NCBI GenBank assembly: GCA_019057815.1
Contig: JAHLWR010000001.1
Coordinates: 24,001-88,000 of the forward strand
DNA from: Candidatus Heimdallarchaeota archaeon
GTDB taxonomy: Archaea > Asgardarchaeota > Heimdallarchaeia > Heimdallarchaeales > Heimdallarchaeaceae
DNA length: 64,000 bases
Reading direction: 5' to 3'
Shown here: piece by piece, positions 4,153-33,876 of the stretch
Layout of the letters: every line of letters begins with the position of its first letter
Position numbering within the stretch: position 1 is the stretch's first letter
Translations under genes and position numbers: made by a program
The notes under the pieces: model-generated
Seen by the model: only the letters and a program-made list of their open reading frames with translations
Databases searched by the model: none
Told to the model about the DNA's origin: nothing

Positions 4153-5055
4153 GTGAATTTAATGACTGAAGAAGACTTGCAAAAAGCTATAAAATTCCTT
4201 ACTAGTGACACACCAGTCCTTCGCCAGTGGTCGCTCCAACAAATATCGAAACACAAAAATAAACATAGAGCTTTAAATGAAGTCATTAACACTCTCATAA
4301 ATGATGAAGATAAGGATGTACGTAGCTTTTCTGCTGAGATTTTGGGTGATATTGGTGATGTAATAGCTACTACTTCACTAGTTAAGATGTTAGAAGATAA
4401 GAGTTGGGAAGTTAGAGAATCTATATTAATAGCTCTCAGTAAATTACAAGATTCCAAAATCATTACCTATCTTATTACAGCACTAAAGGATGAGCACACA
4501 AAAGTAAGATTTACAGCAGTTAAACAGTTATCAAAAATTAATAATCCAAAAATCATTTCTCCCCTTTTTGACCTCCTTCTTGATGAATCAGATTCTGTAA
4601 GAGAAGAAGCTAAAAAAACTCTGTTAGGTTTTAGTGAAACTATACCTGTCTCTTCAATTACACAATACATACGTCATAGTAGCAAAACTATCAGAGAATT
4701 TTCCATTGATTTCCTTTCTGGACACATAGATGGTGACATAATAGCTATTCTAAACGATTTCATGAATGATTATGTCTGGGAAATAAGACTTGCAGCTTTA
4801 AAGAAATTATCTAAAATAGCTATTGATTTTAAAGAAAAAGATTCAAGACTCATCGATATAGGACTTACTGCTTTATCAGATAAGTATTATAGTGTCAGAT
4901 TTGAAGCGGTTAAGTTTCTAGAAATCCTTAAAGACTCAAAAGCAATTGAACCTTTAATAGAAATAGCAAGAAAGGATGAGGATCATAATGTACAGTTAAA
5001 AGCAACTGAAACGATAACTGCAATTATAAGAGCATTAAGATTAAACGAAATCTAA
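4153..5055 (+). CDS. HEAT-repeat protein
   Basis: Repeated ~30-aa helical units such as DEDKDVRSFSAEILGDIGD, LLDESDSVREEAKKTLLGF, DKYYSVRFEAVKFLEILKDSKAIEPL. Confidence 0.85.
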   Translation: MNLMTEEDLQKAIKFLTSDTPVLRQWSLQQISKHKNKHRALNEVINTLINDEDKDVRSFSAEILGDIGDVIATTSLVKMLEDKSWEVRESILIALSKLQDSKIITYLITALKDEHTKVRFTAVKQLSKINNPKIISPLFDLLLDESDSVREEAKKTLLGFSETIPVSSITQYIRHSSKTIREFSIDFLSGHIDGDIIAILNDFMNDYVWEIRLAALKKLSKIAIDFKEKDSRLIDIGLTALSDKYYSVRFEAVKFLEILKDSKAIEPLIEIARKDEDHNVQLKATETITAIIRALRLNEI

Positions 5056-5288: not shown

Positions 5289-5939
5289 ATGCTACTAGCT
5301 GAAGAAGTGGTTATACTAGCACTTGACGTCAATAAAGGGAAGATACCGTTTTCTAAAACTACATTAGTTGACTATGGTATCTCTGGAGCTATTTTAACAG
5401 AACTTGCTATAATGAATAGAATAGATATAGAAGCAGGAGTAGTCAAAATAGTTGATTCATCTCCTCTAAAAATACCCATTTTAGATAATATTTTGAAACT
5501 AATGAATGAAACTAAAACTGAAAAGTCACTCCAATACTGGCTGAAAAGTTTAATCAGAAGCAGTAAAAGCCTTGAAAAAGAGATTTTCAGAAATTTAGAA
5601 AAAAGTAATTTTTTGATAATAAAAAAGAAAAAATTTTTGGGAATATTTCCAATAATTCGGTATGAAATCACTAATATAGAGAAAAGAAACGAAATCCTAA
5701 GCACATTAAAAGAAATTGTTTTAGAAGGAAAGGAGACTGATGAATGTTCAACTTTTCTTTTAGGTGTAACACGTAATTGTGCACAAATAAAGGATTATTT
5801 CCCAGAGGATAGAAAGGATGACATTGTAAAAAGAATAGACGAATTAGCAAAGAATCAGATTGTGTGTAAAGCAATTCAAGAACTGATCAAAGCACAACAA
5901 CAAGCTTTCATCCTCACAAATGTAACAATGCCATATTAG
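5289..5939 (+). CDS. GPP34/GOLPH3-like domain protein
   Basis: LLAEEVVILALDVNKGKIPF..LVDYGISGAILTELAIMNRIDIE...ILDNILKLMNETKTEKSLQYWLKSL...L..EIFRNLEKSNFL follows the GPP34 pattern over its length. Confidence 0.8.
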   Translation: MLLAEEVVILALDVNKGKIPFSKTTLVDYGISGAILTELAIMNRIDIEAGVVKIVDSSPLKIPILDNILKLMNETKTEKSLQYWLKSLIRSSKSLEKEIFRNLEKSNFLIIKKKKFLGIFPIIRYEITNIEKRNEILSTLKEIVLEGKETDECSTFLLGVTRNCAQIKDYFPEDRKDDIVKRIDELAKNQIVCKAIQELIKAQQQAFILTNVTMPY

Positions 5940-5987: not shown

Positions 5988-6233
5988 TTATTCATACAAA
6001 GGTTTGAATATTCTCTTAATAGAAGCTAAAAACTTAGAAAATAGACCTTGATCAGTGTTAACAGATGACAGGAGTGCCTGTTCCTCAGTTTTGTGTCTCA
6101 ACTTGTGTTCACCAATACAATGTATATGTATAATCATCTTACACTTATCACATATAACCATATTAGCTCCACAAGTCTTTTTTGATTCTTCAATTGGCCT
6201 TCCACACTGACCGCATCTACCAAAGAAACTCAT
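5988..6233 (-). CDS. Small zinc-finger protein, PHD/C1-like motif
   Basis: CGQCGRPIEESKKTCGANMVICDKCKMIIHIHCIGEH: C-x2-C ... C-x2-C-x4-H-x2-C-x3-H. Confidence 0.6.
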   Translation of the reverse strand: MSFFGRCGQCGRPIEESKKTCGANMVICDKCKMIIHIHCIGEHKLRHKTEEQALLSSVNTDQGLFSKFLASIKRIFKPLYE

Positions 6234-6423
6234 AACAATTTAGAATTTTAAACACTTATTAACGCTTTGCAGTTGTTTATAGTACTCTCCTCAATTAAAA
6301 TTGCGCTATTATCAATCTCACTATTTACCAAAATAATGATTTAATTTAGATAAAACAGTTTTAGAAAAATAAAATATATTGTTTCTTTTATAAAATTGGC
6401 ACATCAATTTCTCAAAACCATTA

Positions 6424-6473
6424 TTGTCGGAAACTGGAGAATTTTTTAGTTTTAGACCCCAGTCCTATTTTCT
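6424..6473. repeat. Dispersed 50-bp intergenic repeat, copy 1
   Basis: ttgtcggaaactggagaattttttagttttagaccccagtcctattttct; 48/50 identical to 18036-18085. Confidence 0.9.
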
Positions 6474-6638: not shown

Positions 6639-7601
6639 ATGCTGTTAAAAACAATTTTTTATAGATTAAATTTAAGAGGTTTAATTTTGAACATTGACAG
6701 TAGAAGGCATAAAGTTGAGTATATGTGTAATAAATGCGGGAAATTAAGAGTTATGTTTGCTCTTTATGATTTGAAAACAGAAGATTTAGATTCAAAAGGT
6801 TATGTTGAAATCACAGACATTCATAACTGCGTCGGATCTAAACTCACGCCTATTACACTATATGTTGACGCTTCTTATTCTGTAAGATCTCAGTTTCCTA
6901 TTGAAGTTGAAGAAACTAAAACAACTGAGCCTCTACTAGGATTAGACATCCCCTTACCAAAAAAAGTAAAGATAGGTAATCGAGAAATCGAGAAAATAAA
7001 AGGTTTTAGAGGAAAAAGTATCCGAAGTATTAAAATAAATGATAAACTTCGGCAAACCAACTTCTTTTTAGATGTATCTAACAAAGGATATGAACTATCT
7101 TCGACTTCTAAAATGAGTCTTATTACAGTATCAATGAGGATTAAAAAAAATATAGCAGAAAAAAACGCAAAGAAATGGCTTGAAATAATAGCTTCAACAA
7201 TAGAAACGAGGATTATGTTAGATGAAACGATGCTATCTCACCTTCTTGTTTATTTAGAAGGTAAAATAAAGGAAAAACCAGAAGAAAATGAGAAAATCGA
7301 AGTTGAGTTGTTACTCTCAAATTCACATATAATTTCAAATGAAAGTTTACTGACAAATTTTAAAGAAAACAGGTCAAAAACATTTCCTGATTGGACAAAA
7401 GCAGAGTATTCTTATGCTACCAAAATAATTCAAAACTGTTGTACATCAAAACATAACACCCTTTGGGAAGTCTACGAAACGGTGAAAGATAAACAAACTT
7501 TCGCAGAATTCCTTAGCTTAGTTAGAGAATTAAGAAAACAAGAAGTTATTGAGGTTGAAAAAATGGAATTCTTCACGTTATCAGATCCTCAAACAAAATA
7601 G
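6639..7601 (+). CDS. Hypothetical protein with N-terminal zinc-binding-like motif (CNKCG...HNC)
   Basis: Long ORF with codon-like composition; no recognised family. Confidence 0.6.
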   Translation: MLLKTIFYRLNLRGLILNIDSRRHKVEYMCNKCGKLRVMFALYDLKTEDLDSKGYVEITDIHNCVGSKLTPITLYVDASYSVRSQFPIEVEETKTTEPLLGLDIPLPKKVKIGNREIEKIKGFRGKSIRSIKINDKLRQTNFFLDVSNKGYELSSTSKMSLITVSMRIKKNIAEKNAKKWLEIIASTIETRIMLDETMLSHLLVYLEGKIKEKPEENEKIEVELLLSNSHIISNESLLTNFKENRSKTFPDWTKAEYSYATKIIQNCCTSKHNTLWEVYETVKDKQTFAEFLSLVRELRKQEVIEVEKMEFFTLSDPQTK

Positions 7602-7902
7602 AAAAATTATCTTTTTTCTGTTCTTATTTGTTCTAGCGAAATAAATTAATAAATTATAGAAAATACTATTTCATGCCATGCTACACCAGATGAATCAGCA
7701 TATTGGAAAAAAAGCGTAATATATTAAAAAAGATAGGGTATAGAGATAACAAGAATATCGCATTTTTTCGTTTAATAAAGCCCAAAGTAAGGGTCTCTTT
7801 TCCTTCAACGATATCTTATTAATATGGAAGCATGTAGTTTACATTTAGGTTCAAATTATGTCACCATCACAGGTTTCTTACCTTTTAATTCTGCCTTCTT
7901 CC

Positions 7903-7925
7903 TTTTTTCTCGCTTCAACCCCCTC
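7903..7925. repeat. Pyrimidine-rich intergenic repeat, copy 1 (ttttttctcgcttcaaccccctc)
   Basis: Exact 23-bp match to 16398-16420, followed in both by a second shared TC-rich stretch ending ttcttcttcagtt. Confidence 0.85.
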
Positions 7926-8036
7926 ACTCTTTATCTCTTTATTACATATCTCACTCTCTTCTCTCACTATTTCTTCTTCAGTTTTTTATTTTTAGATTGA
8001 ATAATAACTGTTAAATAGAATTTTTCTTGATATTGA

Positions 8037-8999
8037 GTGATTCAGATGAATTCTGCTCAAGAAGAAATTCAAAAATATCTCTCTACATTCAATAGTTATA
8101 GACTTGAAGCAGAGGAAATAATGATTCAGATTAATAGAAGTAAAGTTATTAAAAGAAGAGCACCAAGTGTTGTTTCACATTTCTTTGATGTTTCTAAAAG
8201 CGCAGTAAAAGACACTATGGATTTATTTTCAACAAAAACTGAAGATCCTTTTAAAAATTGGATATCTTCTTTTAATAGAGAAATTAAGGATTTAGATGAG
8301 TTCCTTTCGCTGTGTGTGATTTTAGATCAAGATTATTCTATCTCTAGAAGGAAACCAAAAACTTACATTTCAAAAGTTCATTCTGTTGAAACTCCAGAAT
8401 ATAAGGTTAAACATGTTCTTGATGGATTAGGAAAACTCCAACTACTTGGAAACAATATTAAGCTTAAGGAAGAGATTTCTTCCCGAGAAATTAAAAAAGT
8501 AAAAGGAAAGAAAACAGAAAAAATAACTCCCGTTAAAGTAGCTAAACAATTGTGGGAAAAAGTCCTAGATAATGATATAGATTTTGCTCTTTCGATAGAC
8601 GAATGTGAATACTTTGAGCGTAAGAGAGAAATGATTCAAACCAAAAAAACAGAAGAGCTCCTTGTCGCAATAACTAATACTTATGGAGGTATTGTAGTAT
8701 ATGGAATTACTGACGAAAAAGTTCCTTTGTTATTAGATAACAATCAAAGAGATGATATACAAAATCAGATAACTAATATTTGTAGAAATAATATTAGACC
8801 TCAAATAACTGCGGAATTCAAGTCTATAATCTTGCATAAAGACAAAGGTTACCTCTTTATATACGTTCCAAAAGATAAAGAAATTCTACACACAACAAAT
8901 AATGATATTTATTTCAAAAGAGTTGGTAGTAATAATGTTCGTATGTCTCCTGATGAGGTAAGAGCTTTTTATGACAAGAAAAGTTTAAAGAACAACTGA
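8037..8999 (+). CDS. Schlafen/AlbA_2 (AAA_4-type) domain protein
   Basis: ECEYFERKRE...KTEELLVAITNTYGGIVVYGITDE...IRPQI...ILHKDKGYLFIYVPKDKEILHTTNNDIYFKRVGSNNVRMSPDEVRAFY. Confidence 0.85.
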   Translation: MIQMNSAQEEIQKYLSTFNSYRLEAEEIMIQINRSKVIKRRAPSVVSHFFDVSKSAVKDTMDLFSTKTEDPFKNWISSFNREIKDLDEFLSLCVILDQDYSISRRKPKTYISKVHSVETPEYKVKHVLDGLGKLQLLGNNIKLKEEISSREIKKVKGKKTEKITPVKVAKQLWEKVLDNDIDFALSIDECEYFERKREMIQTKKTEELLVAITNTYGGIVVYGITDEKVPLLLDNNQRDDIQNQITNICRNNIRPQITAEFKSIILHKDKGYLFIYVPKDKEILHTTNNDIYFKRVGSNNVRMSPDEVRAFYDKKSLKNN

Positions 9000-9043
9000 C
9001 AACATGGAATTTATTAAGTAAGATTTCTATTTAATATTGTCAA

Positions 9044-9220
9044 ATGTACTCATCATCTAGTGATTTATTATATCAAGAAAAGAAAATTAAAGATATTTGG
9101 AGGGAGATTCAAAAAAACAATCTAGACTATGTATCTATGGTAGATGAATCTGAGGCTTTTGATAGAAAAAGACAGTTTCATCCCAGGAACAGTTGTTTTC
9201 ACGATGAGATTAAAGTCTAG
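9044..9220 (+). pseudogene. Truncated paralogue of the 8037-8999 Schlafen/AlbA_2 module
   Basis: Translation MYSSSSDLLYQEKKIKDIWREIQKNNLDYVSMVDESEAFDRKRQF... aligns with VAKQLWEKVLDNDIDFALSIDECEYFERKREM; homology ends near 9180. Confidence 0.7.
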
Positions 9221-9397
9221 ACTGACTGTAGTTAAACCTTCGATATTCAAATCTTCAAGTTCGAATGGAATTGTGTAGCTTTCTGCTCTTATTCCAGAAC
9301 TTAAAAGGAAAAAACCTAAAGCTAATGCAACGAATAGAAAGCAAGCTCTTCTCTTATTGGATAATGTATTCTTTTTCATAAAATTATTCCCAAACAC
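9122..9397 (-). pseudogene. Signal-peptide-bearing small protein whose C-terminus runs antisense into the Schlafen fragment; probably truncated
   Basis: MKKNTLSNKRRACFLFVALALGFFLLSSGIRAES signal peptide; last ~20 residues are antisense of the 9044-9180 paralogue. Confidence 0.5.
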
Positions 9398-9547
9398 TTT
9401 GCATTCTTTTTTAGGTTTTATTTTTGAAGCCTAATAGTTTTGTTAATCTATTATATATTTCAAACTTTTCCTTAACTAGTTCTAAATATGCATTATTGTA
9501 TTGTTAATTAACAAAGCAGTGGGCAAAGTTTATATATCTTTAATTTA

Positions 9548-10099
9548 ATGTTTAAGAGAATAGTAGATACTATTCAGGATGATATTATGGTTCAAAAAAA
9601 GTTCAAACAGCTAAAATCAGTTGGATTGTTACTATTGATTGTTTTGAGTGCTTTTTCGATTATTTTCTTCATTAATCATGCTCAAGCAGCTAGCATACCA
9701 ATGCACATTATTTGGAATAGAATCATTGTCACAGAATCTTATGATTCTGGTAGAGGAGAGTTTAGGATTCAAATTAAATATAATGATGGTCAAAACATGC
9801 GAGCACAAAAATCTTCCACACACAGATGTTATGCCGGAGACTACAATCCTCAAATAACTTTCACTTTAGATGAAGAAGTATTATTGGGTACATTAATCTA
9901 TCTTAGATTGATCGAAGATGATGTCTTTCAGGACGATCAAATAATAAGACCGTATGACGAAAATTCTGGTAGTGGCATAAATAATGGCAACTGGTATTCC
10001 TATTTCTACGTAGGTACTACTTTTGAAGATTATATTTTTGAAATCTATAATTCCCGTGGAGATAGAATTTGGGTAAGATTTATAAACCTTGAAGCTTAA
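9548..10099 (+). CDS. Secreted or membrane-anchored protein, unknown function (start may be 9587)
   Basis: N-terminal signal/TM 'VGLLLLIVLSAFSIIFFINHAQAAS'; TATA-like TTTATATATC upstream. Confidence 0.65.
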   Translation: MFKRIVDTIQDDIMVQKKFKQLKSVGLLLLIVLSAFSIIFFINHAQAASIPMHIIWNRIIVTESYDSGRGEFRIQIKYNDGQNMRAQKSSTHRCYAGDYNPQITFTLDEEVLLGTLIYLRLIEDDVFQDDQIIRPYDENSGSGINNGNWYSYFYVGTTFEDYIFEIYNSRGDRIWVRFINLEA

Positions 10100-10202
10100 T
10101 CAAACTAAAAATTTCAAGTTTTTTTATTTTTTTAATTTCTTTTAAAAAGAAAAAAAACTATTTAATCTATTGTATGAGAAAAGGATAAAAAAAGGTGTAT
10201 AA

Positions 10203-12923
10203 ATGAGTTTATTTCGATTGTTTTTTCTTTTGTATCGCAGATTTTTCAAACTCATATTACCATCAACAATCATAACTTTTATCATTCTTGTTTTAATGGG
10301 AAGCACAACAATAGCAATTACTATCACTTTTAATGCCAATTTTAGAGATGAATTAAATAATTTGTCTGTGAGTTTAAGTACCTCACTCCCTCAGAATAGC
10401 ATGCCGGATATTTCATTAGAGGGGCTATTTGATATTTTATCCTCAATTTCAGCTAATGATGATTCTTTAGGATATGGATTTGTTATTAGTTTTCAATTCA
10501 CGAGTCAGAATGAAACTATGAATATTCCATTCATTGGTTTAAGTGATGATTTGATCGAATTTCTTGGTTTTAATGACCAAGAAATTATTGGTTCTACAGG
10601 ATTTACAAATAAGTCTGTAAACTTGTTTGAACCTTTTCCCACTGATTCAAAAAGCTATAATATAAATATTACCAAAATCGAAGATTTAAGTACTAACAAT
10701 CTTTTTGAATATACTCAATTTATTATAGAAACCAATAATCTTCTTTCACTTAATTATACTACTAAAAGGTTCTCACATTTTCTTTTAGGCAATCTGACAG
10801 TAGTATCTGATTTAGTAAATCATTTTGATATTGATTCTCGTGAATTAGGTGCTTTTTTTCTAGAATTATTAGATAGTGGAGTATATTTAAACCGATTAAA
10901 AATTGATGAGATGGAAAATGAGATTTTTCGAAGAGAGAAAATTATTTTTCAAAGTTTAGTGGAAAAAGGATTCAACCCTGAGTTTATAATTTTCGATTCT
11001 CCTCTTAGAGTTGCTATAAACAACCTTGAAAGGAAAATGAATAAAGAGATAAGTTTAATCCAACTACTAAGCATTCCTAATCTTGTTATTGTTCTAATTC
11101 TTCTATTTACACTTGAAGTCGGAGCTTCAAAATTTATGAAAGCTGAAAGAAAAACACTTAAATCTAGGGGAATTTCTGATAAAAAAATTGTTTTTCTGTT
11201 CTTTGCCCATGAATTAATTTCAGATTTAATTGTTGTTTTTATTTCACAAGCTATTTTTTCATCCATTATATATTTACTAGGTTTACCAAAATCACTTATA
11301 TTTTCATTATTTCAGACATATGTCCTTGTTTATTTTCTGCTAACATTATTCAAATTACTTAGTTTTGCTGATATTAGTAAAGAAGATTCAAGCAAAAAAA
11401 CCAAGAAAAGAGGAAAAAAGCATTTAAGGGGAAGAAAAAAATTTTTTACAAGAAAATACTGGATCTCAGCTTCAATAATCTTCATATTTACAATAGAACT
11501 ATTCATTATTTTTGAACCTCTATTCTGGTTTCCCATTATTAGGGGAGTCATTAAAATAATTATTGATATATTGGCAGTTGCTATAGTTTCATATCTCCTA
11601 CTAACATCTATAATTTCAAATAGTGAATATGAGAAAAAAGAATTACTAAATCTTAAAAACTTACTCTTTCGTTTATATTCAAAAGGTTTAAAGAAAATTA
11701 GAATGCAATGTATTGTTACTCTCAGCCTATATACATTACTTTTTTATTTAGTAGTATTTCAAACAGCTAACCAAACTTTCAGTAATATATACAAGGATAA
11801 AGGTATGATTTGTGATTTTTATCTAGATAATAATGATCAAAGTGGGTTTAACTTTAATGAAGTAAAAAATTTAACAAAATTAATTCCTAAAATTAAGGAA
11901 ATTTGCACACTACAAGGTGGTGCAGGATATGTATTAGGAGAAGAAGAAATTATTCCTACTCAGTTATGGGCAATAAATTCATCCTTCTACTCATCAAATG
12001 ATCTAGGGTGGGAACATTTTATTGGATTTAAATCTAGCGGTTTAAGAAACACTAATTTAGAGGATCTTAGAAGTAAAAAAATTATTATTAATCAACGATT
12101 AGCAGAAAAATCTGGTTTAAGGGTTGGCGATGTTACTTCTCTTGATATAAATTTCCGTACCATATCCGAAGTTGAACTTTTACCACCTATTAGAAATTTA
12201 ACTGTTTTTGGTATTGTAGACACTTTACCTCTTCTCAGAACATTCAGTTCTACAATTCACAATTATGTTTTTATTGATATTTCATTACTTCTTGAAATAT
12301 ACTCTGAGATAGGAGTTGATGCGAAAATATCATCATTTGGAGTAAATTTAGTATTAGATGAGAATAATTCTCAAACTGACAAAAAAGCAGAAATAGATAA
12401 CGTTATAGAATCAATTCTTGGTGAACTAGAGCTGTTGAGAATAAATGTAGGTATTATAACATCTTTTTATGAACTTGCTGAAAATCAAGCAGGAACCTAT
12501 TTTACTGTTTTTGATATAATTTTTGCAGTTATTTTTCTTCCTTTGACTACTGTTATTTTCAGTCGAGCAACAATTAAAACTCTTGCTCCGTCTTTAATCC
12601 AATTGGGAACTCGAGGATATCCAGATAGGAAATTAAGAAAGAGCTATATTACTAAAGTTTATAGTTCCCTAGTGTTTAGTTCACTGATGGGACTTGTTTT
12701 AGGGTTAATAATAGGGCTAATATATGTTCGATCTTTTTTTCCGAGTCTTTTATCAGCTAATAATATTCATTTTTATAGCCAAATATCGTTATTTCTGCTT
12801 ACTATTTTTGTCGGAGGAATAGTATCTTTATTTACTATAATTCCATTTTCTGTGAAACAAATAAAAACTATTGTTAAAAACAAAGAAAGGAAGTTATTTA
12901 AGAATGAAACACATCATAGTTGA
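10203..12923 (+). CDS. ABC exporter permease, FtsX/MacB-like
   Basis: 906 aa, N-terminal TM, large extracytoplasmic domain, C-terminal TM bundle; overlaps the ATPase gene. Confidence 0.8.
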   Translation: MSLFRLFFLLYRRFFKLILPSTIITFIILVLMGSTTIAITITFNANFRDELNNLSVSLSTSLPQNSMPDISLEGLFDILSSISANDDSLGYGFVISFQFTSQNETMNIPFIGLSDDLIEFLGFNDQEIIGSTGFTNKSVNLFEPFPTDSKSYNINITKIEDLSTNNLFEYTQFIIETNNLLSLNYTTKRFSHFLLGNLTVVSDLVNHFDIDSRELGAFFLELLDSGVYLNRLKIDEMENEIFRREKIIFQSLVEKGFNPEFIIFDSPLRVAINNLERKMNKEISLIQLLSIPNLVIVLILLFTLEVGASKFMKAERKTLKSRGISDKKIVFLFFAHELISDLIVVFISQAIFSSIIYLLGLPKSLIFSLFQTYVLVYFLLTLFKLLSFADISKEDSSKKTKKRGKKHLRGRKKFFTRKYWISASIIFIFTIELFIIFEPLFWFPIIRGVIKIIIDILAVAIVSYLLLTSIISNSEYEKKELLNLKNLLFRLYSKGLKKIRMQCIVTLSLYTLLFYLVVFQTANQTFSNIYKDKGMICDFYLDNNDQSGFNFNEVKNLTKLIPKIKEICTLQGGAGYVLGEEEIIPTQLWAINSSFYSSNDLGWEHFIGFKSSGLRNTNLEDLRSKKIIINQRLAEKSGLRVGDVTSLDINFRTISEVELLPPIRNLTVFGIVDTLPLLRTFSSTIHNYVFIDISLLLEIYSEIGVDAKISSFGVNLVLDENNSQTDKKAEIDNVIESILGELELLRINVGIITSFYELAENQAGTYFTVFDIIFAVIFLPLTTVIFSRATIKTLAPSLIQLGTRGYPDRKLRKSYITKVYSSLVFSSLMGLVLGLIIGLIYVRSFFPSLLSANNIHFYSQISLFLLTIFVGGIVSLFTIIPFSVKQIKTIVKNKERKLFKNETHHS

Positions 12924-13569
12924 ATCATTATATAAAATATATAGTGGCATTGTGGAAACTGTAGCTTTAGAAAATATTAATGAAAAGTTTGAAAAAGGAG
13001 AAGTAGTTGCTATTGCAGGCCCTAGTGGGAGTGGAAAGACAAGTTTACTCACTTGCCTTGGGGGTGTTTTACGACCTACTAGTGGTAAAATACTAGTTAA
13101 TGGTGAGGATATTACTAAACTATCCGATGATGAATTAGTAACTTATAGACGCGATAAAGTTGGTTTAATCTATCAAGATTTTAATCTGATCAATCAATTT
13201 ACTATATATGAAAATGTTGCTCTTCCTTTACTTATCGCAAACAAGAAATCAGCATTTATCAAAGAGCGAGTAGATTTATTACTGGAGAGTTTAGATATTA
13301 CTCGATATAAGAAAACATATCCACCCTACCTTTCAGGAGGAGAACAACAACGTGTTGCTATTGCTGTAGCTTTAGCAAATGATCCTCAAATTATTCTCGC
13401 TGACGAACCTACTGGTAATTTGGATCTAGAATCTAGAGAAAGAATTCTTAATCTACTTATTAATAAAACTCGTGAACACCAAAAAACACTCATTATTGCA
13501 ACACATGACCCATTTATTTTAAAAAAAGTCAATCGTATTGTGCAACTTGCTAAAGCTAATGGTGAGTAA
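12904..13569 (+). CDS. ABC transporter ATPase, LolD/MacB type
   Basis: Walker A GPSGSGKTS, signature LSGGEQQRVAIA, Walker B IILADEPTGNLD; ATG at 12904 preferred over ORF start 12871. Confidence 0.93.
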   Translation: MKHIIVESLYKIYSGIVETVALENINEKFEKGEVVAIAGPSGSGKTSLLTCLGGVLRPTSGKILVNGEDITKLSDDELVTYRRDKVGLIYQDFNLINQFTIYENVALPLLIANKKSAFIKERVDLLLESLDITRYKKTYPPYLSGGEQQRVAIAVALANDPQIILADEPTGNLDLESRERILNLLINKTREHQKTLIIATHDPFILKKVNRIVQLAKANGE

Positions 13570-15909
13570 ATGGTAAAAATTGTTTTTCTTTTTTTCAAAA
13601 GAAACCCCAAATTATTTTTGAAAGTTGGTAGCTTATCTTTTTTTTTATTTTTACTCATAAGCTTTTATGCAGTTGGATATGCTAGTTTTGAAAAAATCTC
13701 CGTAAACACAAAAATTGGTGACATAGAGAATGATTTAGAAATTCAAGGTCAGATAACAGATAGCTATACTATAGACAACATCTCTTTGATATACTCTTAC
13801 AATATCAAGTGGATTGATTCCCTGAAAGATTGGAAACAGTATGTTATTTCTGACGGACTAGTTCTTATTATCAAAACATCTTTTAATGAAGACTCATTTA
13901 TAATTGGTTTAGATTTGTCTTCAAATAGTAAAAATACAAAAAGGAGGGATTTAACAAATGAAACTATTGAATTCTTTAATAATCAATTGGATATCTCTAA
14001 CTTTACAAAACAAGATTCATTACCTTTTAATCTGGATATCTTAATAAACTACAATCAATTGAATAATTCACATTTTTCAGAGTTAAATATTGATTCCAAT
14101 AATTGTAATATGGGTTATTTTGTAGATATAAGTACGAAATTAATTTCCTCTTTTAAAATGTATACAAAAATACTGAACAAAATAGAAAGTAATTTTATAG
14201 TTTTTGTTTCTCAAAATGACATTATTTCATTAAATAGATTAGAATCCTATAAGATTGAAATTGAGATAGATCTCTTTAAAGAGTCGTTTCAATCTCTAAT
14301 ACTGTTAATTACTTTTATCTCAATTTTAATATCAACATGGTTAATTGAGTTTTTTTCCAGCTTTTATTATTACCAAATTAAAGAAGCACTAGATAAATTT
14401 CAAAAAAGGGGATTGAATGACAAAAAGCAGAACAAAATAACAAAATTTCTTCCAATAGCTACTGATACAATTAGTTTTATCATATTAGAGATTTTATACT
14501 TGCTTATAAGTATTGTTTTTCATATTAATCTTATTTATGCCTACATATCAGTAGTAATGGGATATTTCTACTTGTTATATAAAAGAATTAAATTAAGTAA
14601 TTTAAATGATGAAAATTCAATAAAAATGGGTATTGTTTCATTTGTGAAATATGTTATTATTCTGTTAATTTTCTCTATTATTCTTATTCTTACAAATAAT
14701 ACTCTTTATGCACTTATTCCTCCTTTGGTTTCTTCATTTTTCTCCACAGGATCGATTATTATTCAGTATTATGTAATAACGATTTTACTTTCTGAATTCT
14801 CTCTTAAACTTAAAAAAAAGGTCAATATCAATAAGTTAACAAATAATATGTTTAAACTAATTGAAAAATCTATAATTTCAGGAAAGCAAAATTTAAAATC
14901 ATGGATTCATATAACAATTCTTGTTATATGGTCTATGTCTATCATTTTTACAAGTATTAACACCTTCACAGCTAATTATAACTTGAATCAAACGATTGAG
15001 TATCCAACAGACATAATTATAGAGGTCGAAGGTGTTTATCTTGCCAATATTTCAAAAATTGAGATACTACCAGAGGTTGAAAATATATTACCCATTTCAC
15101 ATAGCGTTGAACAATATTTTTTTAACTATGATTACTATTTAATGGATTTTTCAAAAGTAAAAATAATGTTTCCAGAATTCGTTAAGCTGTCAAAATTGAA
15201 CGATATCCAAGAAGAATACACTTATATCCACAAGACAATGGCTGAAGAATTAAATTTGAATAATAATGACCTCTTCCCAACAAAATTTGGTAAAAATCAA
15301 ACAAATATTATAGTTAATCAGCCAATTTTTGTAACAAAATATTTTCCATTAATAAAAACAATAGAAGAAAGACCTTTTGTCGTATCAAATTATCGTGCAG
15401 AGTACGAGAATCTGACTATGATAACGAAAATTATGATAAATTTTAATAATTCTTTTGATGAAGAACAAAGCCTTGAAAAAATTAAAAATATTCTTAAAAC
15501 AAATTTCCAAATACAAAAGAAAAATGTTTCTCTAGATTATAATGTACCACTAAATATATGTAAATATTTCTTCTTTGTAATCTCTTTATTTATCTGTTCT
15601 TTGAGTTTTATTCAACTCATCTCACAGCTATCACCTATTTTCAGAAAAATGAATTTACGAGGGTTAAAAAAGAGACATATTTACACTTTACTGCTCAGAC
15701 AATTTAGCTCTTATATTATAACTGCCATTATTATTGGAGTAATTTCAGCTCTCTTCTTCATTTTTGTACAAATGCAAAAAACCATTTATCACATAACTCT
15801 GTTCACCCCGATAAAAATCTATTTTGATTTCTGCTTATTAATGTTAATTTTGGTACCATTATCATACTTTGTTATCCTATATATATTTAACATGTTAAGA
15901 AAGGATTAA
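13570..15909 (+). CDS. ABC exporter permease, FtsX-like
   Basis: 779 aa, multiple TM, starts immediately after ATPase stop. Confidence 0.8.
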   Translation: MVKIVFLFFKRNPKLFLKVGSLSFFLFLLISFYAVGYASFEKISVNTKIGDIENDLEIQGQITDSYTIDNISLIYSYNIKWIDSLKDWKQYVISDGLVLIIKTSFNEDSFIIGLDLSSNSKNTKRRDLTNETIEFFNNQLDISNFTKQDSLPFNLDILINYNQLNNSHFSELNIDSNNCNMGYFVDISTKLISSFKMYTKILNKIESNFIVFVSQNDIISLNRLESYKIEIEIDLFKESFQSLILLITFISILISTWLIEFFSSFYYYQIKEALDKFQKRGLNDKKQNKITKFLPIATDTISFIILEILYLLISIVFHINLIYAYISVVMGYFYLLYKRIKLSNLNDENSIKMGIVSFVKYVIILLIFSIILILTNNTLYALIPPLVSSFFSTGSIIIQYYVITILLSEFSLKLKKKVNINKLTNNMFKLIEKSIISGKQNLKSWIHITILVIWSMSIIFTSINTFTANYNLNQTIEYPTDIIIEVEGVYLANISKIEILPEVENILPISHSVEQYFFNYDYYLMDFSKVKIMFPEFVKLSKLNDIQEEYTYIHKTMAEELNLNNNDLFPTKFGKNQTNIIVNQPIFVTKYFPLIKTIEERPFVVSNYRAEYENLTMITKIMINFNNSFDEEQSLEKIKNILKTNFQIQKKNVSLDYNVPLNICKYFFFVISLFICSLSFIQLISQLSPIFRKMNLRGLKKRHIYTLLLRQFSSYIITAIIIGVISALFFIFVQMQKTIYHITLFTPIKIYFDFCLLMLILVPLSYFVILYIFNMLRKD

Positions 15910-16397
15910 TATAAAACATTGCAAAGAGAGAGTTATTATTATTATTCAACTTTTCACATTTTATCTTTAGGGTGTATTATAGGCATAAAACGTTTACCTC
16001 CAATAACAGTGAATTTTATCACTACTTAATGAAAAGATAGAAAATATTCTCAAAAAATGGCTATTTTGCTAGTAAAACAGTGTTTGCTATTCGAGAAAAG
16101 ACACAACTTGTTATGTTGTACTAACTAGTCTAGCATTAAAAGAAATTGTTTACATTTATTAGAGACTGAATACTTGTATATGTTGATTTCTCAACTTAAT
16201 AATGGAAAAATGATGATTTTAATTTAATATTGACTTAATTCGATTTTTATAAGAAAGAAAACAAAGAAGGAATAGTTGCTATATAATCTATTTTTCGTCT
16301 TTTTTGAGAGAATAGTTTTATGAGTAGCAAAGGAACTACTACTATTAGTAGAGTAAATGTGAAATATAGATAAGTTTCATCAGTTCGGTATTCATTC

Positions 16398-16420
16398 TTT
16401 TTTCTCGCTTCAACCCCCTC
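16398..16420. repeat. Pyrimidine-rich intergenic repeat, copy 2
   Basis: ttttttctcgcttcaaccccctc, exact match to 7903-7925. Confidence 0.85.
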
Positions 16421-16447
16421 TCTTTTCTCTCTTTTTCTTCTTCAGTT

Positions 16448-16481
16448 CATCTAGTGATTTATTAGATTTATTATATCAAGA
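16448..16481. repeat. Remnant of the 5' end of the Schlafen paralogue (catctagtgatttatta...tatcaaga)
   Basis: Shares catctagtgatttatta and ttatatcaaga with 9053-9077, with an extra ~9 bp gatttatta duplication. Confidence 0.65.
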
Positions 16482-16562
16482 GCTTTTTACAACTTTCTTG
16501 AATGCTAATACAGTTGAAATAACATTTATCAGTTTAAATATCCAAATCTTAATATCAAAATA

Positions 16563-16790
16563 ATGGATATTGATAATTTCTCTGATTTTCAATTAGGAAT
16601 AATACAAACAGAAACTGAAAAAGCTTATTTTGCTACTATTATTAGGCTAACAGAAGACCCCGTCTGGATTCCTAAGAGTGTTGTTGAACGTAAGACTATG
16701 AAACTCAAAAAGTGGTTTATCGATCAATTACAAAACGAACTTAAAACCAATAAACAAACAACTTTGGCTGATTATTTTTCTACAAAGTAA
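16563..16790 (+). CDS. Small protein with C-terminal PIP-box (PCNA-interacting) motif
   Basis: 75 aa ending KTNKQTTLADYFSTK; QTTLADYF fits Q-x-x-[ILM]-x-x-[FYW]-[FYW]. Confidence 0.65.
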   Translation: MDIDNFSDFQLGIIQTETEKAYFATIIRLTEDPVWIPKSVVERKTMKLKKWFIDQLQNELKTNKQTTLADYFSTK

Positions 16791-16893
16791 TTTTGTAGGT
16801 TCATCCTCTAATCATCTGAAGATAAACTTGGTAAAAAGATGTGGTATTAACATATCGCATAATGCTATAAACTAGTATTTCTAATTATTATAC

Positions 16894-17172
16894 GTGAGCA
16901 ATTCAAGACTCAACTTTAAAAAGCCATGTGTTCAATGTAGAAATAAAACTATGACATTTTGTAAAACTTGCAGGAGATTCCTTTGTGGTAGATGTAAAAC
17001 AAAGAAACCAATTAGATTTCCTTTAAGTAAAATTCATTTTCCTTCTGGTGTATGTAAAGATTGTAAAGAACTCCTATTAATAAAATACTCATTAAATTTA
17101 GGACTTGATTTTACTTCTTTTCTTTTAAAACTACCTGAAAAAGTAGAAGAGTGGAAAAAGAGGTACCTTTAG
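16894..17172 (+). CDS. Small zinc-finger protein with FYVE-like cysteine spacing
   Basis: CVQC-x7-CKTC-x4-CGRC-x18-CKDC. Confidence 0.6.
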   Translation: MSNSRLNFKKPCVQCRNKTMTFCKTCRRFLCGRCKTKKPIRFPLSKIHFPSGVCKDCKELLLIKYSLNLGLDFTSFLLKLPEKVEEWKKRYL

Positions 17173-17327
17173 ATCTCTCTTCTAACATGAAACACGTCTG
17201 TGAATACACTTTATTGTTGTTTATGCTAACCGTACGAGATCATTTTAATCTACGAAACAAACCAAAATAACAAAAAGAAGATATTTATTCTTCCGATTAT
17301 TCGAACAAAATATCAAGAAGTGGTATA

Positions 17328-17918
17328 ATGGATATTAAAAGAAAAATAAGCAATTTATCACGAGAAATTAGTGTGAAACTTTAAGAAATAGAAGATTTAC
17401 TTGAAACAAGTTACTTAAGTAAATCTTTTATTGACATTCCTAGTGGTCCAATTTCTTACGCAGATACGCATCGTAAGAGATTTTCGTTTCTTAAATGTCC
17501 AAAATTAATAAGTAATGTCTCCTACCACCTTATGTTGAATGACCTTTTTAGTTGGATGTTGCACAAATTTAATTTGTATTCTGTAGTTGAAGAAATGTTA
17601 ATCAAAATCTCAATTGCAAATTATGGTAATATAATTGCTGCTATTGTTACTCCCATTGCCAAACGCTTTATGAAACGCAAAAAACTTGGTTTTAATCAAG
17701 CTTGTAGTATTTTGGTTCAATCTAAGATTATTTCCTCCGATTTAAAAAAAGAACTGAGATGGGTATATGATATAAGATGTAAACAACATGTTGATACACT
17801 CAATCAATGGGAATATGAAGAATATAACTTAAGCCAATATAAGAAAACTGAAGATATTTGGTACAAACTTTTGAATCAAATAAAAACAGCTTCTAATAAT
17901 GGACTTATCCCTGATTAA
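17328..17918 (+). pseudogene. ~196-codon gene interrupted by an in-frame TAA at codon 19 (17382-17384); downstream ORF 17532-17918 still open
   Basis: Same frame from ATG 17328 through 17918: MDIKRKISNLSREISVKL*EIEDLLETSYLSKSFIDIPSGPISYADTHRKRFSFLKCPKLISNVSYHLMLNDLF... Confidence 0.6.
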
Positions 17919-18035
17919 AATAAACTTTCGTTGATCTCTAATTATTTTCCGATATTATAAGTAAAGAAACATAAGCATATTTAATCCTGAAAAATATAGT
18001 TTGTGATTTTTCTTATGTTTTTCTGCGAACTATTT

Positions 18036-18085
18036 TTGTCGGAAACTGGAGAATTTTTGAGTTTTAGACCCCAGTTCTATTTTCT
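18036..18085. repeat. Dispersed 50-bp intergenic repeat, copy 2
   Basis: ttgtcggaaactggagaatttttgagttttagaccccagttctattttct; AACTGG/CCAGTT can pair. Confidence 0.9.
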
Positions 18086-18342
18086 GTGATTCTTTAAATT
18101 ATTTTTTTAACTCATCCCTTCCGTCAGTATTTTCCTTGGTGTTCTTGTCGTCATTATGAACATTTATAGTGAAAAGAAATTTTTCGTTTGAATAGGCTAT
18201 ATGATCTATTCTGATTCTTTCCTTGTTCTTGTTGAGAAAAAAGAGGAAAACTGATTTGTACTAATCCATCCTTTACTTCACCAATGTTTATAATTGATAT
18301 CTACTAACTTATTATGTTAAATTATTAAAAGAAGGACTTCAT

Positions 18343-20607
18343 ATGGACATCAAGGAATTCCTCGATAGACATCTTGGTAAAGAAGAAGTAAAATATTTAG
18401 CAAGATGTCTAGGTTTGAAACTAACTGGTAACAAAACTGAATTACTAGACAGTATAGTTACATGTGAGTATTTTGATAGAGACGATATCCCCAAAATCTT
18501 TCACAGAGACTTCTTAGATATGTTATCGAGAAAATATTCTCAACCTGTATCAGGATTAAAAGATGTGGCATGGAAAAGAATAGTAACTAAATTAAAACTT
18601 GATGGAGGAACATCAGCTTTAGAAGAGAAAATAGCAGAAGAACCTTTTGTAAAAACACAAATCCTAGATGAACCTATAGCTAAAGACAAAACTCTCACTG
18701 TAGAGAATCTAATAGTTGAAGGTGGTTATGAGGAAGCATATAATCAGATTCTTAAATTAGAAAAAAAACCTCTTAAAATTGAAGACAAAATCAAGTGTCA
18801 AATACTCAAAAGCAATGTTTTAAACAAACTAGGAAAATATGAACAATCTTTAGATCTTTCCTTAAATGTTTATGAGCAGAGTAAAAAAATCAACGACTCA
18901 ATATTAACAATGGATGCTGTTCTTAATATGTCCTATTCATTATGGAAAATAGGCAAATTTGATGATTCTTTAGCAATTATTGACAAACATGAAGATTTAG
19001 TGGAAAATCATAAACAGAAAGAACCTCATAAAGCTATAATTCAAAAAGCTACACTCTTAAGAATCAGAGGGGTTAACTTTCACGTTCTTGGAAAATTGAA
19101 TAAAGCTTTTGAATTCTATCAACAGAGTCTTGAACTATGGGAAAAATCTGATAATAAACAAGAAATTAGTTCTACTCTCAATAATCTAGGCGTACTGTGT
19201 AGAGGTAAGGGAGAATTACATAAAGCATTAGAATACTACCAGAGAAGCCTTGCAATATATGAAGAACTTAATAATGAAGATGATATAGCTACTTCATTAA
19301 ACAATATTGCTAATCTTTATCGGAATCAAGGTGATTTAGAAAGAGCCTTAGATTTTTATCGTAAAAGCCAAGCTACATGGGAAAAAATAGGTAATCAATC
19401 AAATATTGCATTATCTTTCTGTAACATAGGTGAGATATTTCTACAACAGGGGAATATAGACAATGCAATTGAATATCTCCAAAAAAGCCTTCGTCTCAGA
19501 GAGAAAGTAGGAAATAAACACGAATTAGTTTTAACTCGCTTTTATCTCATTTCTGCACTCTTAGATAATAGAAGAACTAAAGATGCACAGAAACATCTTA
19601 TCCACATCAAGGAGATTGTAGAAGGTGAAACAGATCCCTTCTTAAGTCAGATAACACGAGTATCTGAAGCTATGATTCTAAAAACAAGTACTCGTATAAG
19701 AAATAAAGCTAAAGCTGAGGAAATTTTTCAAAAAATCATAGAAGAAGACATTGTTGATTATTCAATAACTATTGTAGCTCTTCTTAATTTTGCTGAATTG
19801 CTACTTGACGAGCTAAGAATTACTGGAGACACAGAAGTACTAGCGATGCTTAAATCAATTTCTCTTAATCTTCTGGATGTATCAAAAAGGCATAATTCAT
19901 ATCTATTATTAGCAAAAACATATTGTCTTCAATCTCATTTAGCTTTAATAGATTTAGATCTAAACAGAGCACGAAGTTTGCTTACACAAGCTCAATTTAT
20001 TGCAGATGATAAAGGTATGTGGAGAATGGCAAGAAAGATTTCAAGTGAGCATGATGTTTTATTAAGCCAAACAGACAAATGGGAGGCGCTTGTAGAAAAA
20101 AATGCGCCAATGATTGAAAGGTTGGAACTTGCTCAATTGAGTAATATCATGCTAAGAATGATACAAGATGGGGAACTTACACCACCAAAATTGCTGAATG
20201 AAGAACCTGTTCTCTTACTAATATTAGCAGAAGGTGGCATGCCCTTATTTTTCAAGAACTACCATACAGAAGGACAACTTAATAGTTATCTTATAGGGGG
20301 CTTTTTATCAGCAATCAATGCATTTAGCAAAGAAACATTTTCTGTTGAAGGCTCAATTGAGAGAATAAAACACAATGAATTTACAATGCTCACAAAAAGC
20401 TTCGAACCATTTTTATTCTGTTATATCATGAAAGGACAAACTTATGCAGCCATGCAGAAATTAGAGGGGTTTGTGTATAGCATAACTTCCTCGGTTACAA
20501 TAAGTAATGAACTACTTAAATCAGTAAAAACTTCTAAAACCCTCACTCTTGAGTCATCAAAAGCTATTGAGGATATAGCTGTAAACATATTTCCAAGCAA
20601 AAGGTGA
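18343..20607 (+). CDS. SAP-like N-terminus plus tetratricopeptide-repeat protein
   Basis: 'EEVKYLARCLGLKLTGNKTELLDSIV' SAP-like; TPR units 'SSTLNNLGVLCRGKGELHKALEYYQRSLAIYEEL', 'ATSLNNIANLYRNQGDLERALDFYRKSQATWEKI'. Confidence 0.88.
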   Translation: MDIKEFLDRHLGKEEVKYLARCLGLKLTGNKTELLDSIVTCEYFDRDDIPKIFHRDFLDMLSRKYSQPVSGLKDVAWKRIVTKLKLDGGTSALEEKIAEEPFVKTQILDEPIAKDKTLTVENLIVEGGYEEAYNQILKLEKKPLKIEDKIKCQILKSNVLNKLGKYEQSLDLSLNVYEQSKKINDSILTMDAVLNMSYSLWKIGKFDDSLAIIDKHEDLVENHKQKEPHKAIIQKATLLRIRGVNFHVLGKLNKAFEFYQQSLELWEKSDNKQEISSTLNNLGVLCRGKGELHKALEYYQRSLAIYEELNNEDDIATSLNNIANLYRNQGDLERALDFYRKSQATWEKIGNQSNIALSFCNIGEIFLQQGNIDNAIEYLQKSLRLREKVGNKHELVLTRFYLISALLDNRRTKDAQKHLIHIKEIVEGETDPFLSQITRVSEAMILKTSTRIRNKAKAEEIFQKIIEEDIVDYSITIVALLNFAELLLDELRITGDTEVLAMLKSISLNLLDVSKRHNSYLLLAKTYCLQSHLALIDLDLNRARSLLTQAQFIADDKGMWRMARKISSEHDVLLSQTDKWEALVEKNAPMIERLELAQLSNIMLRMIQDGELTPPKLLNEEPVLLLILAEGGMPLFFKNYHTEGQLNSYLIGGFLSAINAFSKETFSVEGSIERIKHNEFTMLTKSFEPFLFCYIMKGQTYAAMQKLEGFVYSITSSVTISNELLKSVKTSKTLTLESSKAIEDIAVNIFPSKR

Positions 20608-28764: not shown

Positions 28765-30115
28765 ATTCATGAACTACTCCTACCTAAAGGTAGGCGTTTC
28801 TTGATTCATTGAAAAGACTTGTCCACTGATGATTGCCGAAGCAGTAAGAGTGAACAGGGGTCTGTTCTCCACAAGTAAAGAGGTATGTCCCTTACGCCTC
28901 TTCAAAATGTTTATTGAAGCGTTATAGTCACGGTCTAGCTCTAAGCCACAATAAGGACAAGAGTGTGTCCTATCATTTAATGTCTTGGGGACTATCTCTC
29001 CACATCTGGAACATTCTTGAGTAGTGCCTCTAGGAGGAACTTTAACTAGTTCTTTATCAGCGTTTACAGCTTTATAAGCTAAATAGTTGAAGAATATTCC
29101 CCACGAAGCGTCGAGAATGTTACGATGGAGTGTGCGTGACCGCTTGTGTTTCTTATTTCCGTTCTGTGTGAGTCCTTTAATATTCAAGTTTTCCACACAG
29201 ATAATATCATAATTATCTACATAAAAGTTTGAGACTTTATGTAAGAAGTCTTTACGCTGGTCAACAGCTTTAGTGTAGAGTTTAGCCAACTGATATTTGG
29301 CTTTTAACCAATTCTTTGAACCTTGCTTTTTACGACTAAGAGATTTGTGCTTATTTTTAAGTTTCTTTAATTGTCTTTCTATGTTTTTAGGATTCTCTAT
29401 CTCTCGTCCATCCGAATCCACTGCGTAAGAATTTATCCCTACATCTATCCCTACGCTTTTAGAGGTTTTAGGAAGAGATATAGGAGCGTTCTCTACTTGT
29501 ATATTAGCGAACCATCTACCTGTTTGAGAACGTTTGAGTATTATGCCCTTGACTTTGTTTGTACGTATACGATTGTTTAATCCTCTACAATTGATAGTAC
29601 CTATCTTAGAAAAGGTTAGTTTATTTTTGTTTTCATCTATCTTGAATCCACTCTGGTTATAGTTGATAGTCTTGTACCATCCTTTTCCTTTGAAACGTAA
29701 GTGACCGATCTTATGTCCATTCTTCTTTAATTGTGCTAGACTTTTGATATTTGTCCATAGAGTGTAATTGACCATCTGTAAAACTTTAGAATATACCCCT
29801 TTCAATTCAGGCATAGAACTGTTTTTTAGCCCCACGATAAAAGATTGAGTTTTGATTTGTGTGAGTTTTTCTCCCTTCTCTCACGCTTTTTTGCGCTCTT
29901 CTAATAGCTTATTATAGAGTTTTCTGCAAATATCCAACTGTTCAATGAGTGTGGCTTGTTGCTGTTTATTAGGGTACAGTTGCACTTTGTAGGTTAACAT
30001 CAGTTCATTTCCTTATTTCCTTAGTACTTTTTTCACTATAAAAAGACGAGTATATGCTAAAGTGATGTTTCTATCGCATTCATCCCCACCTAAAGTTAGG
30101 GGATTTCTGCTATGC
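28765..30115 (-). mobile_element. IS200/IS605-type solo tnpB element with subterminal hairpins; no tnpA adjacent
   Basis: Ends carry imperfect palindromes CCTACCTTTAGGTAGG (~28780) and CCCCTAACTTTAGGTGGGG (~30085) around tnpB. Confidence 0.75.
28780..30000 (-). pseudogene. tnpB: TnpB RNA-guided nuclease-like gene with an in-frame TGA at codon 40 (29881-29883)
   Basis: MLTYKVQLYPNKQQQATLIEQLDICRKLYNKLLEERKKA*EKGEKLTQIKTQSFIVGLKNSSMPEL...; SVGIDVGINSYAVDSDG, CVENLNIKGL, CSRCGEIVPKTLNDRTHSCPYCGLELDRDYNASINIL. Confidence 0.88.
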
Positions 30116-32571: not shown

Positions 32572-33876
32572 CTATGAAAAGGCGTTTTTACATACGTTTC
32601 CAGGGGTTATATAATTGAGAGGACAACCTCCTCCACACAACTCTCGTTCAGGACATTCAGTACATTCTTGAGGAAGATACTTCATGTTACGAAGATGTTT
32701 TGCTAGCTTATGGTTCCAGATTTTCTTCCACCTCGTTGTTAGAATGTTACCTAGGGGTTCGAAGTAACTCTGACATGGGATAACCATTCCATCTGGTTCA
32801 ATAGCCATTGCTATATGAGCAGCTGAACACTGTTTCATTCCCAAGTTCTTCTCTATTGGATTGAAATCACAATATCTTGTTGGAGAGTACCAGAGGAAAC
32901 CCATTTTAAGCTCTTCAGCCTTGTTCATCACAAGATTTAGAGTATCATCCAGTTGTTCGATAGAGAGAGATAAAGCTGGATTTTTCCCACCACCAGATTT
33001 TATTATGGCGTTTGCAGCAAATTTTTCTATTCCAAGTGAAGCTAAAAAGGAAATTGTTTCTTCAACTCCTTCAATATTATGTGGTGTTAAAGTTGTATTT
33101 GTCATAATATAGACAGGTGTTGGTATAACATTCTTTATCCCTTCAACGGTTTCCTTCCAAGCTCCTTCTACTCCCGATAATTTATCATGGGTTTTTTCAT
33201 CATAACTCTCTATTGTTACTTGAAAATGATCAATTCCTGCTGTTACTAGACTTTCAACTAGTTTTTTATCTTTCAGCTTTCTTCCATTAGTGATTATTCC
33301 AGTAACTATCCCTAAATCTTCAGCATGTTCTACTAGCTCTGTTAAATCATCTCGAAGTGTTGGTTCTCCTCCTGTAAAAGTCACATGAGGTATACCTATC
33401 TCCCATAATCTATCTAGAACTCTTTTCCACTCTTCTGTACTTAACTCTTTGATTTCTCTATTAGTTTCAACATAGCATTTTGTGCACTTGTTATTACATC
33501 TGTAAGTTAAAGCTAAATCTACTCGAAGTGGAGCTGAAAAAGGTGCTTCTTGTAAAGGTGAAATATCTTGCGAGAGATCTTGAACTGGGTCTATATCTGG
33601 TTCAGCCATTAACTCTTGTATTGATGTTCTTAGGTCATCCAAATCGTCAATAAGTTGCTGTTCTGTAACTTTGTATTTCTTCTTCAATTCTCTAATTATT
33701 TCATCGTCACCTTTTCCTTCTATTATTCTAGAGACGATTTCCGTTGCTGTCTTATTAAGATAGAAGATTCTTGTAGCATTAATTATAAGAATACCTTCAC
33801 CTTTTTTCTCTTTTCTGAGATGCATTCTACCAAAAGTTTCTGTATCTCGAAAATGATAAATTTTTGTTGACTTCAT
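32572..33876 (-). CDS. Radical SAM/SPASM enzyme with N-terminal PqqD-like (RRE) domain
   Basis: CNNKCTKCYVE; TFTGGEPTLRDDL; SPASM C-terminus CSAAHIAMAIEPDGMVIPCQSYFE...CTECPERELCGGGCPLNY...C; PqqD-like N-terminus; ATG at 33876 overlaps upstream stop. Confidence 0.93.
   Translation of the reverse strand: MKSTKIYHFRDTETFGRMHLRKEKKGEGILIINATRIFYLNKTATEIVSRIIEGKGDDEIIRELKKKYKVTEQQLIDDLDDLRTSIQELMAEPDIDPVQDLSQDISPLQEAPFSAPLRVDLALTYRCNNKCTKCYVETNREIKELSTEEWKRVLDRLWEIGIPHVTFTGGEPTLRDDLTELVEHAEDLGIVTGIITNGRKLKDKKLVESLVTAGIDHFQVTIESYDEKTHDKLSGVEGAWKETVEGIKNVIPTPVYIMTNTTLTPHNIEGVEETISFLASLGIEKFAANAIIKSGGGKNPALSLSIEQLDDTLNLVMNKAEELKMGFLWYSPTRYCDFNPIEKNLGMKQCSAAHIAMAIEPDGMVIPCQSYFEPLGNILTTRWKKIWNHKLAKHLRNMKYLPQECTECPERELCGGGCPLNYITPGNVCKNAFS

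Follow-up and report, generated by a model that had tools for sequence, protein, structure and literature searches.

The window analysed here, a stretch of 64,000 nucleotides from Candidatus Heimdallarchaeota archaeon, carries a gene of the GPP34 (GOLPH3) family near its start. The gene, its parts and its neighbours are as follows:

4153-5055, plus strand: HEAT-repeat protein, 300 aa, upstream of the GPP34 gene and 234 bp away
5289-5939, plus strand: GPP34 (GOLPH3-family) gene, 216 aa, with a Pfam GPP34 match, a GOLPH3/Vps74 fold match and omega 0.184
5355-5384, plus strand: K23 to S32, aligned with GOLPH3 W81 to R90, half of the PI4P pocket (family alignment)
5565-5576, plus strand: K93 to E96, aligned with GOLPH3 R171 to R174, which complete the pocket (family alignment)
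5613-5669, plus strand: predicted beta-hairpin, residues 109-127 (DSSP on the AlphaFold model)
5988-6233, minus strand: zinc-finger-like protein, 81 aa, downstream of and convergent with the GPP34 gene
6639-7601: 320-aa protein with no family match, next after the 81-aa gene

The open reading frame starts with ATG, and many stops occur in register on the opposite strand. Search with the Pfam model PF05719 (GPP34) gave a match of 108.2 bits (E = 7.5e-31; curated cut-off 29.1) along the full length of the profile, with protein residues 3-202 corresponding to profile positions 1-200 of 201. No NCBIfam model matched the protein. Human GOLPH3 (3kn1) was found at 4.2e-5 when the single sequence was compared with PDB sequences using phmmer, and a profile made from 21 Asgard homologues found GOLPH3 at 4.9e-27 and Vps74 at 8.8e-22. 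A sequence-only reading of the window had proposed a GPP34 pattern for this frame; the profile search bore it out, as did the fold comparison described below, and membership of the GPP34 family is thus shown by both sequence and fold.

The host was confirmed as a Heimdall-type Asgard archaeon through its genus-mate, 'Ca. Heimdallarchaeota archaeon 8H_bin2' (G001), which encodes a 94% identical GPP34 protein on contig BPTO01000049.1 (18,837 bases), and the proposal of a GPP34-like protein in an archaeon therefore stands. Positions 1 to approximately 7,880 of the window were colinear with this contig, so the gene is no stray contaminant. Its G+C content (0.304) was the same as that of the neighbouring genes, and it was the only GPP34 gene found by Pfam profile search in its own 3.74-Mb, 48-contig genome. 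Comparison of the window and 8H_bin2 copies by the Nei-Gojobori method gave an omega of 0.184 at a dS of 0.129; the gene is under purifying selection. The protein it encodes is a genuine archaeal GPP34 and belongs to the older, prokaryotic type of the family.

The structure of the protein was predicted with AlphaFold from an alignment of the window protein and homologues from related loci (16 sequences), giving a pLDDT of 88.3 and a pTM of 0.84. The fold of the GPP34 domain was present in the model, as a helical core with a projecting beta-hairpin. Comparison with the PDB using Foldseek returned seven matches at E <= 0.001, all of them to GOLPH3 (9qpq, 3kn1) or Vps74 (2zih, 2zii), with query TM values of 0.69-0.76 and E values of 1.8e-9 to 4.9e-7; the next match was at E 0.11. 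Against human GOLPH3 and yeast Vps74 (PF05719; 3kn1, 9qpq, 2zih), the whole GPP34 domain was covered and the same fold was seen in both, with query TM 0.76 and 24% identity for GOLPH3, and query TM 0.69-0.73 and 20% identity for Vps74, over approximately 183 columns. The hairpin strands span residues 109-116 and 120-127 (DSSP on the model), with the tip FLGIF and a preceding KKKK. In the family alignment, the hydrophobic tip columns 117, 119 and 120 were conserved in Asgard, bacterial and eukaryotic rows. These data show that the window protein retains the hydrophobic beta-hairpin of GOLPH3, which inserts into bilayers and mediates dimerisation in solution (PMC12494035); insertion of the archaeal hairpin into membrane would follow by analogy.

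The residues that give GOLPH3 its eukaryotic functions were then compared. The PI4P site of GOLPH3 has been described as W81, R90, R171 and R174 (PMC13408441, PMC4414131), or as R90, R171, N172 and R174 (PMC12494035). By alignment, W81, R90, R171 and R174 are replaced in the window protein by K23, S32, K93 and E96, and N172 by S94, so that one residue of four matches, and conservatively (R171 to K93). The same pattern extended beyond this protein. Tryptophan at position 81 was found in none of the 71 prokaryotic rows, arginine or lysine at the R90 column likewise in 0/71, and basic residues at both 171 and 174 in just 4/71; the insert that carries W161 (GOLPH3 columns 161-168) held residues in 0/71. 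The window protein begins at approximately GOLPH3 residue 60 and hence lacks the disordered N-terminal region, residues 1-58, with its COPI-binding motif. K179 and E183, which touch alpha-COP in GOLPH3, align with R and K. On the client-binding face, D247 and D258 appear from the alignment to be missing, reading A and K in a gapped region where the alignment is less sure; D262 lies near an aspartate of the window protein, again in a gapped region with unsure alignment. The PI3/PI4-kinase model PF00454 had no match at E 0.001 in the genome itself or in 38 relatives (39 Heimdall-class genomes). Single losses of this kind could be read as drift, but the losses of pocket, tail and insert, taken together, say that the eukaryotic PI4P and COPI functions are not there. 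The functional link to GOLPH3 implied by the sequence-only reading accordingly fails, and the comparison shows that eukaryotes added the PI4P pocket, the COPI tail and the insert around W161.

GPP34 in Asgard archaea is patchy yet diverse. The Pfam model matched in 34 of 231 Asgard genomes at E <= 0.001 (32 of 231 over the cut-off), and the Asgard-derived profile in 37 of 231 genomes, from 14 of 63 genera. In the window's own family a homologue was detectable in 3 of 24 genomes, and Haloferax volcanii, one of the control genomes, had no GPP34 match over the cut-off. Related proteins include two in Lokiarchaeum ossiferum (CP104013) and those of Lokiarchaeota CR_4, Lokiarchaeota Bin_342 and 8H_bin2; outside the genus, Asgard homologues were just 25-30% identical to the window protein. 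At least two copies were present in several Asgard genomes, arranged in tandem in Lokiarchaeum ossiferum and G135, in contrast with the single copy of the window genome. The family was also known from some bacteria, as the earlier reading had said, and matches at E <= 0.001 were obtained in genomes of Cloacimonadota (23/99), Verrucomicrobiota (7/59), Actinomycetota (7/41) and Bacteroidota (2/80), and of one further phylum (4/61). The bacterial proteins have the same domain, similarly without R90 and the eukaryotic insert, but most bacterial groups are acidic whereas Asgard GPP34 proteins are mostly basic. Bacterial plasmids searched with a Lokiarchaeum GPP34 copy gave weak matches only.

Examination of the gene surroundings (98 proteins at 21 Asgard loci) showed mixed neighbours, and a conserved operon or partner for GPP34 was rejected. 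The order HEAT-repeat, GPP34, zinc-finger and 320-aa gene was common to 8H_bin2 only, with different neighbours at other Asgard loci. The 81-aa zinc-finger-like protein (5988-6233, minus strand) had weak PHD and C1 matches, under the cut-offs, and its genus-mate copy was 85% identical (omega 0.365). The commonest neighbours were translation and other GTP-binding domains, small GTPases, ferredoxins and metallo-beta-lactamases, but no single kind was present at a majority of the loci. In a genome of the window's order, a biopterin-dependent aromatic amino acid hydroxylase (PF00351, 1.2e-43; L099:8077-8961, minus strand) adjoined GPP34. Small Ras/Rab-like GTPases lay within two genes of GPP34 at four Asgard loci (L106, L107, L109 and L110), making up 5 of the 98 scanned proteins, two of them at L110. 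The gene order at L110 resembles that at L109; the two GTPases of L110 have C-terminal zinc ribbons, and at both loci the GTPases are followed by a 407-aa protein resembling a GTPase domain joined to a roadblock-like end. Small Ras-like GTPases are abundant in Asgard genomes. This neighbourhood is a lead only, and an association is not claimed: there were about four independent cases at most, none in the window, and 5 of 98 may be no more than the ordinary density of such GTPases.

Phylogenetic relationships were analysed by maximum likelihood (LG+C20+F+G4) in an unrooted tree of 73 sequences, including two eukaryotic ones. Asgard, bacterial and eukaryotic sequences were largely separate. On one side stood 39 bacterial rows (support 87/77), while 28 Asgard rows grouped together (87/94); the GOLPH3/Vps74 pair lay at the base, between Asgard and bacteria, along with another four Asgard rows. 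AU tests rejected none of the arrangements examined in this tree, namely Asgard monophyly (p = 0.53) and a clade in which the window pair, i.e. the window and 8H_bin2 proteins, groups either with eukaryotes (p = 0.30) or with bacteria (p = 0.36); the best trees do not join the window pair to eukaryotes. Five Heimdall rows from the same order (L002, L006, L007, L008 and L009) were not grouped with the window pair. When long branches were removed (55 rows, unrooted), the window pair fell inside an all-Asgard group of 18 rows (98/96). The Lokiarchaeum ossiferum, CR_4 and Bin_342 proteins belong to this group too, and like 8H_bin2 they share the window protein's domain length and its absence of pocket and insert. 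The bacterial side was again opposite (87/86), Asgard monophyly had an AU p of 0.485, and the eukaryotes were again at the base, 'Asgard + eukaryotes' and 'bacteria + eukaryotes' being indistinguishable. These data show long residence of GPP34 in the Asgard lineage. The phylogeny suggested with the sequence-only reading therefore spoke against a recent bacterial transfer, yet it did not join the protein to eukaryotic GOLPH3, and the window protein is not shown to be an ancestor of the Golgi protein.

Across all branches of the family the helical scaffold and the hydrophobic hairpin were kept; the differences lay in the pocket for a specific lipid, in the tail that binds the coat and in the client face. 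A general peripheral membrane adaptor is the simplest reading, and we would accept about as readily as doubt that the window protein is such an adaptor, of the older prokaryotic type, with a mechanism modelled on GOLPH3. The protein would be soluble, probably a dimer formed through the hairpin as in GOLPH3, and would dock by burying the hydrophobic hairpin in the inner face of the cell membrane. Basic residues beside the hairpin (K112-K115, R124) may contact acidic archaeal lipid headgroups, with no specific phosphoinositide recognised. Once docked, it could hold or position membrane proteins by binding their cytosolic tails, much as GOLPH3 does with glycosyltransferases, yet with no coat or Golgi; eukaryotes would have added PI4P recognition and COPI binding to an older docking scaffold of this kind. 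Docking and client binding are inferred here from GOLPH3. The same clients, or the same client face, need not apply, since the alignment places A and K at the positions of D247 and D258.

The one experiment found on a prokaryotic homologue bears on this proposal. When Streptomyces (Actinomycetota) lost its GPP34 gene sco4440 along with sco4439, the muropeptides changed and wall-deficient cells were produced (PMC12402492). By analogy with this altered envelope, prokaryotic GPP34 members can presumably act at the cell envelope. For an archaeon the support is in general terms only, since archaea, to our knowledge, have no peptidoglycan. Two observations count against the adaptor reading: the mixed Asgard GPP34 neighbours name no partner, and protein surfaces are not alike across the family, given the mostly basic Asgard and mostly acidic bacterial groups.

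Other functions were weighed against that of an adaptor. The protein might be a true functional GOLPH3, a PI4P effector that serves an endomembrane or vesicle system of Asgard cells by retaining glycosyltransferases there, and that is ancestral to the eukaryotic protein. The shared fold and hairpin would fit this, as would the unrejected clade of eukaryotes and window pair and the small Ras-like GTPases beside some Asgard GPP34 genes, human GOLPH3 being reported as a RAB1 effector (PMC7425898). The pocket, however, is not conserved (K for W81, S for R90, E for R174), the N-terminal tail is missing, and the 39 genomes yielded no PI3/PI4-kinase match, though other kinds of kinase are possible. 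No GTPase adjoins the window gene, two pairs of the five GTPase neighbours come from related loci, and the free tree does not join the window protein with eukaryotes; we consider this function extremely unlikely. Slightly less remote, and still very improbable, is a soluble regulator or nucleic-acid-binding protein, whose winged helix the helices and basic hairpin would resemble. Sub-significant Foldseek matches (E 0.4-1.4) to winged-helix regulators, PadR and LmrR among them, and the KKKK before the hairpin point this way, but those matches were partial and insignificant, with query TM of approximately 0.2 against 0.76 for GOLPH3, and the hydrophobic FLGIF tip is unlike a DNA-binding wing.

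The origin of the gene was considered in the same manner. Recent horizontal transfer from bacteria to this Heimdall lineage would draw on the many bacterial GPP34 genes, some of which match the window protein as closely (25-29%) as its Asgard homologues do, on the scarcity of homologues in its own family, and on the unrejected clade with bacteria. Against it stand the supported all-Asgard group, which makes a recent bacterial origin unlikely, the closest bacterial relative in the sets searched, at approximately 29% identity, the gene position common to the genus-mate, and the G+C content matching the neighbours; we give such a transfer hardly any credence. That the gene passed long ago between bacteria and Asgard archaea, one way or the other, and then spread and was lost among Asgard lineages, with eukaryotes later acquiring GOLPH3 from either side, is a serious possibility that falls just short of an even chance. 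It would suit the patchy Asgard distribution, the presence of GPP34 in several bacterial phyla, the separation of the five same-order rows from the window pair, and the eukaryotic lineages in which GOLPH3 is reported absent. The Asgard rows, however, stay largely together (AU p 0.53 and 0.485), which fits one old archaeal presence with many losses, and the tree has no root. This account concerns origin and is compatible with the membrane-adaptor mechanism. Descent of eukaryotic GOLPH3 from Asgard GPP34, an archaeal hairpin-based membrane adaptor gaining PI4P and COPI recognition on the way to the Golgi, we regard as unlikely.

The reported eukaryotic distribution affects what the archaeal gene may mean. 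No Vps74/GOLPH3 homologue was found in plants (2016 review, PMC5045529), nor was GOLPH3 found in Giardia by an HHpred-based survey (PMC7058353) or in the dinoflagellate Breviolum by a Pfam survey (PMC9909359); in a survey of the yeast genome, VPS74 is listed with the genes common to animals and fungi (PMC3737173). Because of the absences reported in plants, Giardia and Breviolum, an ancestral trafficking role of GPP34/GOLPH3 at eukaryogenesis is doubtful; if the last eukaryotic common ancestor had no GOLPH3, little can be learnt about eukaryogenesis from an Asgard homologue. Of the relevance to the origin of membrane trafficking that had been suggested, a real and old archaeal GPP34 remains, while the PI4P and COPI features are missing and no tree ties it to eukaryotes. 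Since it was eukaryotes that added the pocket, the W161 insert and the COPI tail, prokaryotic GPP34 homologues should not be credited with the role of PI4P effector. What emerges instead is that Loki- and Heimdall-type archaea have an old and diversified family with the GOLPH3 fold. Archaeal GPP34/GOLPH3 was unmentioned in the literature searched, including the main text of a 2023 survey of Asgard eukaryotic signature proteins, though automatic Pfam annotation would name such genes; as far as that literature goes, the Asgard branch is old, diverse and undescribed. Lokiarchaeum ossiferum is cultured and has two GPP34 copies, which makes the membrane-docking idea testable.

Several further observations were made in the window. 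Positions 7885-18698 (approximately 10.8 kb) are absent at this place from the genus-mate contig, which jumps from 7884 to 18699, the endpoint falling inside a TPR gene that starts at 18343. The G+C content of this variable stretch was 0.279, against 0.327 for the window, and it contains:

8037-8999: SLFN/AlbA_2-domain gene
10203-12923: large membrane protein
12871-13569: ABC ATPase
13570-15909: second membrane protein

A 66-base stretch of the genus-mate, near the colinear match at window position 6404, also matched window positions 18020-18085 (92%); the repeat, at approximately 6408-6473 and at 18020-18085, thus flanks most of the variable stretch. Further along, positions 28780-29835 (minus strand) hold a TnpB-family-like open reading frame with a C-terminal zinc finger, read by eye as CSRCG...CPYCGLELDRDYNASINILKRR, and positions 33876-35651 (minus strand) encode a 591-aa predicted membrane protein with a glycine- and cysteine-rich tail, SGGGGGGCACACACACACAGGGR.
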